A stretch of DNA of 64,000 nucleotides from Streptomyces sp. 846.5. GTDB taxonomy: Bacteria > Actinomycetota > Actinomycetes > Streptomycetales > Streptomycetaceae. Below the pieces are notes generated by a model. That model ran no database searches. It had not been told where the DNA came from and saw only the letters and a program-made list of their open reading frames with translations. The stretch is from the NCBI RefSeq assembly GCF_004365705.1, contig NZ_SOBN01000001.1, positions 2,520,001 through 2,584,000 on the forward strand, written 5' to 3'. A program made the translations under genes and the position numbers. Within the stretch, counting starts at the first letter, position 1; each line of letters opens with the position of its first letter. Shown in pieces: positions 3,441-5,246 of the stretch.

Positions 3441-5090
3441 CTAGGGTGCGACCCGTCCGTGCTCATTGAAGGCCGCGTGCGTCAGAGGCATCAGTTCGGC
3501 CCACTTCTGCTCCATCTTCTCCGCGACCATCTCGATCTCCCGCTGCGGGAACGAGGGCACCCTGGCCCGCTCGTCCTTGGTGCGCAGCGAGAGGAAGTGC
3601 ATCAGCGAGCGGGCGTTGCAGGTGGCGTACATGGACGAGAACAGCCCCACCGGCAGGACCGCGCGGGCCACCTCCCGGGCCACGCCCTCGGCAAGCATCG
3701 CCTGGTAGGCGGCGTACGCCTGACGGTACGACTCCTCCATGGCCGAGCTCACGGCCTTGTACTGGTCGGCCGTGCCCTCGTAGAACTCGTACTTGCCGGG
3801 ACGGCCCTTCTGAACCAGCTTGCGCTCAGCCGCCGGGACGTAGAAGACCGGCTGCAGCTCACGGTAGCGACCGCTCTCCTCGTTGTAGGAGTTGTGGACG
3901 ACCACACCGTTGGCCAGGAAGTTGTGCCAGGGGCCTTCGACAGCGAGGTCATAAGTCATCTCCTGTCCTTCGGAATGCACCGCCACCAGGAGATCCGGCT
4001 TGGCCAGGGCCACCTTGCCGCCGCGTTGGGCCAGGGCCTGCTCGGCGGCGCTCTTCTCGGCGTGGCATGGCTCGCATGCCGGGGCGAGGTTGGACTCGTC
4101 CAGCGCCTTGCTCACATCCATAGCCACCGGAATGACGTGATCCAGTTCCAGAGCGCCGCGGTCGAAGGTTCGGGAACAGAGGTAGCAGACGTCGATCTCG
4201 TCGATCAGCCGGTTTCGCTGCATGGACGTCCAGACGCTGATGCCGCGACGCAGGCTCGGCGGAACCAGGGCAACAGACGGACGGGGCGCCGTCCCACCGA
4301 TCATCACCGATTCCCCGACCGCCAACTCGCCGGCCTTACGCCAACCCTCCGGCGTGAGGATCGCGTGGTCCTTGCTGCAACGCACGCTCTTGCCGCTCGC
4401 GGTGGTCAGCCGAAGCAGTTCCTTGACGCCGGACTCCATCACGTCGATGATCTGCGCACGACCTGCCAGAAGCGTGCGTTCGTCGTAGCAGCGCACATGG
4501 TTGCGACGGACCGAGTCGATCTTCCGCTGGCGTTTGCTGGGGTGGAGCGACCGAAACTCCGCCACCGTCCGCTCAGCGTCCGCCTTGCTGGTGTGCAGAC
4601 CGAGGTAGTGGTACTTCCCCTGCACCTTCACCTGTGCGGACCACTTCTGGGCCTTCTCCTTCCAGGTGACACCGCCCTTGCTGACGGGCTCTCGGTCTTC
4701 CACGCCGTTGTGCCACAAATCGTAGAGGTCCTTGATGGAGCGCCTGCGAAGAGCCCCGCCTTCGCTCTCCAGGGTGACCTCCGTGTCACCGGCGAGGCAC
4801 CAGCCGCTGCGGTGCCGGTGGAACTCGCGGAAGACGAAGATCGGGGCGCTCACCAGGAAGGTCATCGAGTTGTGCTCGAACGGGGTGCCGTGGCGGTCGC
4901 GCATCAGGTAGTTGATGAGCCCCTTGGATCGTGCCGGGTCCTTTCCGAGCTCGTCGATCGACTGCTCGCCGGCGGTCGACACGCGGGCGGCGAACAGGAC
5001 GTCGGCGTCCTGGGCGCTGCTGCGAACCAACTCGACGGTGACGTCGTCCCTGAAGACGGGCTCCGGTACGGCGGGGGCTTCGTCGGTCAC
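3441..5090 (-). CDS. thyX: FAD-dependent thymidylate synthase ThyX with intein
   Basis: The 549-residue precursor is a flavin-dependent thymidylate synthase (dUMP to dTMP using NADPH and methylene-tetrahydrofolate) interrupted by a 303-residue intein. The joined exteins (residues 1-97 and 401-549) give 246 residues, the normal ThyX length for Streptomyces. The ThyX signature RHRx7S is cut: RHRSGW (92-97) precedes the intein and SYNEES follows it, so splicing is needed to build the active site. I chose the GTG start at 5090 because AAGGA lies 9 bases upstream; an ATG 9 bases further upstream has no usable spacing. Next come dapA and rnj on the same strand. Confidence 0.95.
   Translation of the reverse strand: MTDEAPAVPEPVFRDDVTVELVRSSAQDADVLFAARVSTAGEQSIDELGKDPARSKGLINYLMRDRHGTPFEHNSMTFLVSAPIFVFREFHRHRSGWCLAGDTEVTLESEGGALRRRSIKDLYDLWHNGVEDREPVSKGGVTWKEKAQKWSAQVKVQGKYHYLGLHTSKADAERTVAEFRSLHPSKRQRKIDSVRRNHVRCYDERTLLAGRAQIIDVMESGVKELLRLTTASGKSVRCSKDHAILTPEGWRKAGELAVGESVMIGGTAPRPSVALVPPSLRRGISVWTSMQRNRLIDEIDVCYLCSRTFDRGALELDHVIPVAMDVSKALDESNLAPACEPCHAEKSAAEQALAQRGGKVALAKPDLLVAVHSEGQEMTYDLAVEGPWHNFLANGVVVHNSYNEESGRYRELQPVFYVPAAERKLVQKGRPGKYEFYEGTADQYKAVSSAMEESYRQAYAAYQAMLAEGVAREVARAVLPVGLFSSMYATCNARSLMHFLSLRTKDERARVPSFPQREIEMVAEKMEQKWAELMPLTHAAFNEHGRVAP
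3891..4799 (-). other. Intein in ThyX with AP2-like and HNH modules
   Basis: Residues 98-400 of the precursor form the intein. It starts with Cys (CLAGDTEV, block A) and ends GVVVHN, with Ser as the first downstream extein residue; block B is RCSKDHAIL and block F is MTYDLAVEGPWHNF. An HNH endonuclease sits between blocks B and F: CYLC, LELDHVIPVA, and NLAPACEPCHAEKS with a second CxxC (intein residues about 205-249). Between blocks A and B, intein residues about 46-81 (KWSAQVKVQGKYHYLGLHT) resemble an AP2/integrase-type DNA-binding domain, known from some HNH homing enzymes. All terminal splicing residues are present, so it should splice. Block B has Ser where Thr is usual. Confidence 0.93.
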
Positions 5091-5190
5091 CTGGCACATT
5101 CCTTTCGTGGCCGGTCCGCTCCCGGTTGCGGACCGCACTCAGGGTATCGGTCGCCACCGACAGCCCTGCCGCGCTGCTTATCCTGCTCGC

Positions 5191-5240
5191 AGGGAAGGAA
5201 CAGGAAGAGACAAGAAGGGACAGGAAGGGACAGGAAGGGA
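5191..5240 (+). repeat. Five tandem purine-rich decamers before a GNAT gene
   Basis: Five 10-base units with consensus CAGGAAGGGA run without gaps from 5191 to 5240 and end seven bases before the ATG of the acetyltransferase gene. The two units next to the gene are identical, and divergence grows with distance. Each unit holds a Shine-Dalgarno-like GGAAGGGA, so the array also supplies the ribosome-binding site. Confidence 0.85.
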
Positions 5241-5246
5241 CCGGGA

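Follow-up and report, generated by a model that had tools for sequence, protein, structure and literature searches.

A ThyX intein of Streptomyces whose splicing domain is likely interrupted by both an AP2-type and an HNH module, and its free-standing relatives

Inteins in the thymidylate synthase ThyX are already known, those of mycobacteriophages (Cane17, Norm, Gizmo, StAugustine and others) being of the HNH type like the one described here; one survey lists two ‘TdS’ inteins in cluster C1 mycobacteriophages (PMC5050341). Trichodesmium erythraeum also harbours a ThyX intein (Ter ThyX), which we liken to ours by the host protein alone, and a mini-intein engineered from it splices at approximately 100% in Escherichia coli (PMC3620165), so that an intein in ThyX can evidently work. 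Accessory domains within inteins have precedents too. Indeed, PI-SceI (the yeast VMA intein) carries in its HINT domain a DNA-recognition insert that lies apart from the nuclease, and in PI-SceI and archaeal VMA inteins the extra domain is described as contacting DNA or modulating cutting (PMC8966425), which parallels the AP2-type module reported below. The same pair of modules, an HNH cutter and an AP2 binder, occurs in ‘IPA-HNH’ of phage ICP1, and the HNH-AP2 homing endonucleases are described there, outside inteins, with the HNH N-terminal and the AP2 C-terminal (PMC10448857). In the intein studied here, AP2 precedes HNH, i.e. the opposite order to IPA-HNH, and both are set into the intein. 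PI-SceI and the archaeal VMA inteins, for their part, belong to the LAGLIDADG nucleases and bear accessory domains of different folds, unlike the HNH/AP2 combination considered here. Finally, yeast WHO and HO are intein-like elements devoid of exteins and of splicing, linked to a cut-resistant version of their target gene (PMC7282813); they combine LAGLIDADG with a zinc finger, whereas the two free-standing Streptomyces ORFs presented below, to which (and to which only) they are the nearest known parallel, combine HNH and AP2 as read from their sequence. Across the literature on inteins, ThyX, AP2, HNH and NUMOD that was covered (titles and abstract openings, with few subscription papers), we found neither an AP2-bearing intein nor a description of this Streptomycetaceae ThyX intein. 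A 2025 preprint, going by its title, reportedly deals with actinobacteriophage inteins of non-canonical architecture, and may already describe this design.

In the window (the whole stretch of 64,000 nucleotides of Streptomyces sp. 846.5 DNA that was analysed), a single open frame of 565 codons spans 3441–5138 on the minus strand, and its two halves match thyX (PF02511 profile positions 81–190 and 2–79). The thyX precursor gene is placed at 3441–5090 (minus strand), with a likely GTG start at 5088–5090 and the sequence AAAGGA (5100–5105) nine bases upstream of it; ATG 5097–5099 and GTG 5136–5138 are alternative starts. From the preferred GTG, a precursor of 549 residues would give, post-splicing, a ThyX of 246 residues, and the first-pass annotation, which had predicted that removal of the insert restores an enzyme of this normal length, is borne out. 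All on the minus strand, the N-extein (4800–5090) ends in ...FREFHRHRSGW, the intein (3891–4799) covers 303 residues, and the C-extein (3441–3890) begins with Ser+1 (SYNEESGRY) and includes the stop codon. The insertion between RHRSGW and SYNEES, also claimed in the first-pass annotation, proved base-exact: no stop occurs across the 303 codons of the insert, exactly 3891–4799. One detail had to be corrected, as the motif restored by removal is not RHRx7S but RHR followed by eight residues and Ser (RHRSGWSYNEES), i.e. one residue longer. The same spacing is present in the empty allele of the closest extein (G003, locus L005), and alignments with two ThyX structures of the PDB open a one-residue gap opposite the extra residue. 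Despite this departure from the ThyX signature, membership of the family is otherwise clear (184 bits for the TIGR02170 thyX profile on the ORF). Just upstream of thyX, a tandem repeat of GGAAGGGACA (approx. 4.9 copies) occupies window positions 5193–5241, between thyX and a divergent ORF that we take to be GNAT-like.

The comparison with empty-site alleles that had been suggested for this locus is clear-cut: among 14 genomes of the genus, two (the window genome and G011) carry the intein, and the other 12 have nothing inserted at this bond. Since the very same bond is uninterrupted in these congeners, the insertion does not result from chance, and a frame artefact is ruled out likewise.

The ends of the insert show clear homology to intein splicing domains. 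Indeed, NCBIfam intein_Nterm reached 34.5 bits (cut-off 24.5) and intein_Cterm 25.2 bits (cut-off 15.6), Pfam Intein_splicing reached 45.2 bits (gathering threshold 35.8), and phmmer searches against the PDB retrieved DnaB and RecA intein structures together with HNH endonucleases. By its sequence, the insert at 3891–4799 is a class-1 intein, with a Cys1, a block-B His, a block-F His, a His-Asn end and a Ser+1. On the minus strand, block A with Cys1 (CLAGDTEVTLESE; intein_Nterm) lies at 4761–4799, block B, in the SxxH form (CSKDH, His145), at 4353–4406, block F (EMTYDLAVEGPWHNFL, His292) at 3915–3962 and block G (His302-Asn303) at 3891–3914, the last two being placed from intein_Cterm and the alignment. 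The first-pass annotation had listed these splicing blocks, all of which were recovered, and had overlooked both the HNH and the AP2 modules that lie between them. Cys1, His145, His292, His302 and Asn303 are invariant in the 18 full-length members aligned, namely those obtained from a search of 297 genomes of the family, and the intein of the window and that of G011 differ with an overall pN/pS of 0.20.

The predicted HNH nuclease core (4050–4187, minus strand; intein residues 205–250, CxxC...LDH...N...CxxCH), which occupies the position customary for an intein nuclease, matches Pfam HNH PF01844 above gathering in the window intein (E = 3.1e-9). Its CxxC, DH, N and CxxC are intact in 18 of 18 members and the final His in 17 (it is changed in L042). 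The second module, a putative AP2-type DNA-binding domain (4524–4688, minus strand; intein residues 38–92), is located between blocks A and B, hence in the N-terminal half of the fold that carries out splicing. Pfam AP2 matches 17 of the 18 members (E up to 1; best E = 4.7e-7), the match of the window intein itself being weak (E = 0.038; 14.7 bits, below the gathering threshold of 33.3). Because a structure model of the whole intein built from five sequences was of low confidence (pLDDT 44.7), the fold search was limited to the AP2 part. Modelled alone (pLDDT 75.5), this part adopts a beta-beta-beta-alpha arrangement in which a three-stranded sheet packs on a helix and which finishes in another, short helix. 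Plant AP2 structures then rank first, third, fourth and fifth, the second rank being held by a mitoribosomal protein; 7et5, 7wq5 and 1gcc are within these top five (TMq 0.62–0.71; E = 0.06–0.18), all of the fold matches being weak by E-value (best 0.058, and none at or below 0.001). Taken together, the splicing domain is interrupted twice, by a probable DNA binder and a probable DNA cutter. Between the window and G011, pN/pS values are 0.24 for AP2 and 0.17 for HNH, versus 0.39, 0.17 and 0.15 for the splicing parts. Compared over their full length, mycobacteriophage relatives are 37–38% identical in 14 records, which represent 11 phages because three have two entries each; the StAugustine intein reaches 48% over residues 90–303 of the window intein. 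In Cane17, Norm and StAugustine, the intein interrupts ThyX at the same bond as in the window, before SYNEESGRY; however, these inteins (253–257 residues) are devoid of AP2, whereas that of the window has one.

The search of the 297 family genomes gave matches in 41, of which 23 lie at this thyX bond (L036–L058), the other 18 being weak and partial (best E per genome from 3.6e-9 to 7.5e-4). In exactly those 23 genomes, thyX is split into two weak matches; ten more genomes of the family have two thyX matches, at least one of them full-strength. In a second sample, drawn from the genus to which Streptomyces AC512 belongs (392 genomes), matches were obtained in 30, i.e. 16 thyX intein loci (four of them identical to earlier ones), two free-standing ORFs and 12 weak partial matches. 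Both samples combined yield 35 distinct thyX intein alleles. A total of 27 are full-length with AP2 (302–307 residues, assigned by length and alignment, and by Pfam for 18 of the 27), one retains HNH without AP2 (G140, 239 residues), and four mini-inteins of the same class lack both AP2 and HNH (G069, G075, G123 and G325, of 164, 163, 152 and 149 residues, respectively). The remaining three alleles form a second class that resembles the mycobacteriophage ThyX inteins (G285, G613 and G490, the latter without HNH). When the AP2 columns are excluded from the tree, first-class inteins that are AP2-less or mini are scattered among AP2-bearing ones, and are thus best read as losses. In one allele (L120, genome G495; 307 residues), which sits on a longer branch, the proline/alanine-rich stretch before HNH is expanded, and this intein is possibly decaying.

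Several of the same data bear on mobility. Presence and absence of the intein change at least 11 times on the extein tree, seven of these changes being forced by starred branches. The extein nearest to that of the window (G003, 97% identical) has an empty site, and the intein nearest to that of the window is from G011 (83%). The Ser+1 codon is TCC in both the window and G011 and AGC in the two closest empty relatives of the window, which hints at a co-conversion of the flank on arrival; this is a local sign and not a proof, given that TCN is likewise the Ser+1 codon in 38 of 40 empty alleles. Beyond it, the bases show no clear tract of conversion by a donor resembling G011, and the hint of a recent arrival by homing is accordingly a matter of local comparison only. 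Spread by plasmids was rejected, as the matches were just short HNH matches in two Staphylococcus plasmids, and the search of IMG/VR for relatives of the intein returned a single weak one, confined to the HNH region.

The cell had been proposed to depend on splicing unless another thymidylate synthase exists, and the genome check for thyA supports this view: in the window genome (completeness given as 100), the PF00303 search found no second thymidylate synthase. Because this genome has one thyX and zero PF00303 matches, the host should depend on splicing of the intein for de novo dTMP, and for this reason thymidine auxotrophy could read out splicing. At the scale of the family, thyX is present in 286 of 297 genomes, and all of the 11 genomes without it have a PF00303 match, which fits a requirement for one thymidylate synthase. 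Among the 23 carriers, 17 have no PF00303 match, four have a weak one (E from 1e-28 to 1e-14) and two a strong one (G180 and G194, E below 1e-120); with 17 carriers seemingly deprived of a second enzyme, the interrupted thyX looks like the sole thymidylate synthase in most of them. Weak PF00303 matches occur in many other genomes of the family, and we presume that they are perhaps enzymes of nucleoside antibiotic pathways.

We consider that the insert is a class-1 homing intein of the HNH type, lodged within the active-site motif of ThyX (probability of approx. 0.9), because its end domains score above the cut-offs, congeners are empty at the site, the splicing residues are invariant, the sequence is under constraint and the distribution is patchy. 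Judging by these features and by what is established about inteins in general, the N-terminal Cys1 would form a thioester, which Ser+1 would attack, Asn303 would cyclise with the help of His302 and His292, and the exteins would be ligated into the 246-residue ThyX. In the excised intein or in the precursor, AP2 would bind thyX alleles with uninterrupted RHR..GW/SYNEES codons, HNH would cut the intein-less gene, and repair would copy the intein in. As the insertion site encodes a conserved active-site motif, imprecise loss and splicing failure would both be costly to the host.

An intein still competent for splicing but immobile, its nuclease being inactive and the element inherited or lost like any gene segment, is rather unlikely. 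The one AP2-less form and the four forms lacking both modules do indicate that the nuclease is dispensable for persistence; however, constraint on the AP2 and HNH of the window is similar to that on the splicing parts (see the pN/pS values above), the HNH motif residues are intact, and the intein occurs patchily across the extein tree. Conditional splicing, i.e. a post-translational switch on ThyX (e.g. redox via Cys1) kept for the benefit of the host, appears highly improbable: such a switch would be effective at this site, in the active-site motif of the sole thymidylate synthase found, but 12 of 14 congeners manage without the intein, and its presence on the tree changes as for a selfish element. 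Removal of the insert as RNA (an in-frame group I or II intron), the refuting outcome named in the first-pass annotation, found no evidence in its favour and is rejected, given the 303 codons without a stop, the conserved protein splicing motifs, the purifying selection on the protein, and an Rfam search (E up to 1) that yielded no intron family; its two weak matches, F6 sRNA (E = 0.058) and mir-187 (E = 0.56), score under the gathering threshold and do not lie in the insert. As a homing intein, the element of the window owes its moderate interest to the double insertion and to its location in the sole thymidylate synthase found.

Its free-standing relatives could matter more, provided that they are active. 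Two such ORFs were retrieved, one in Streptomyces AC512 (G297; L035, 2893–3915, plus strand, 340 residues) and one in G381 (L108, 1471–2511, minus strand, 346 residues). Both align to residues 2–301 of the window intein at 56–57% identity and are devoid of ThyX exteins; their start codons are unsure, because the N-terminal extension shows little conservation (33% of 33 aligned residues). The AC512 ORF occupies the thyX locus, on the strand expected for thyX, with flanking genes that we assume, from their likeness to the ORFs of the window, to be dapB and dapA, as around thyX in the window. It points toward a different type of thyX, encoded on the other strand, whose product reads RHRAGVAVSQES and does not have the standard insertion site, and G381 shares this stretch at 78–89% DNA identity. 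In both genomes, the divergent thyX is the sole PF02511 match; in G297, PF00303 additionally gives a single partial match (E = 1.2e-28). A search for extein remnants beside the two ORFs yielded none that is recognisable (the best E-values, 0.009–0.04, correspond to the divergent thyX, all others being at or above 0.05).

In both ORFs, Cys1, both block His and the His-Asn end are lost, and all scored HNH motif residues are kept, so that they combine, as WHO does, the loss of splicing residues and the absence of exteins with a retained nuclease domain. Between them, 21 of 141 residues differ in AP2 and HNH, versus 50 of 158 in the splicing parts (Fisher's exact test, p = 0.0007), in this single pair and in a comparison picked after the ORFs had been seen; the same test on five pairs of splicing inteins gave no difference (p = 0.45 to 1). 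When the divergence of the splicing parts is divided by that of the nuclease parts, the ORF pair stands at 2.12, against 0.64–1.32 for the 153 pairs of 18 splicing inteins. The predicted AP2 and HNH modules are thus kept under constraint in the free-standing ORFs while the splicing residues are lost. The tree nests these ORFs, on a long branch, with eight thyX inteins including that of the window (99/99, starred). Against this nesting, the ORFs may have branched off before all thyX inteins of the class: a tree holding the 32 class members together without the ORFs is not rejected by the AU test (p = 0.148).

A bacterial counterpart of WHO/HO is a tentative reading of these relatives, less likely to be right than wrong. 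An AP2-HNH element would have left its extein, lost splicing and persisted as a homing nuclease beside an immune, non-orthologous thyX; cutting of ordinary thyX could then spread both, and the intein of the window would represent the ancestral splicing form. Such a system would amount to a gene-replacement drive that spreads a nuclease together with a resistant thymidylate synthase. More generally, a single gene displays double-insert inteins, AP2-less forms, mini-inteins, phage cousins inserted at an identical bond, and free-standing relatives that have lost splicing. This series allows tests of how inteins gain or lose DNA-binding modules, and of whether an intein can become a free-standing homing gene in bacteria, a passage suggested by HO and WHO of yeast. 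The divergent ThyX (RHRxGxAVSQES; L137–L144) was detected at 72% identity or more in eight of the 392 genomes, G297 included, and only G297 and G381 among these eight have an HNH ORF (CxxC...DH pattern) within 1.5 kb. In G613, the divergent ThyX coexists with a thyX of the standard type, itself interrupted by a phage-like intein.
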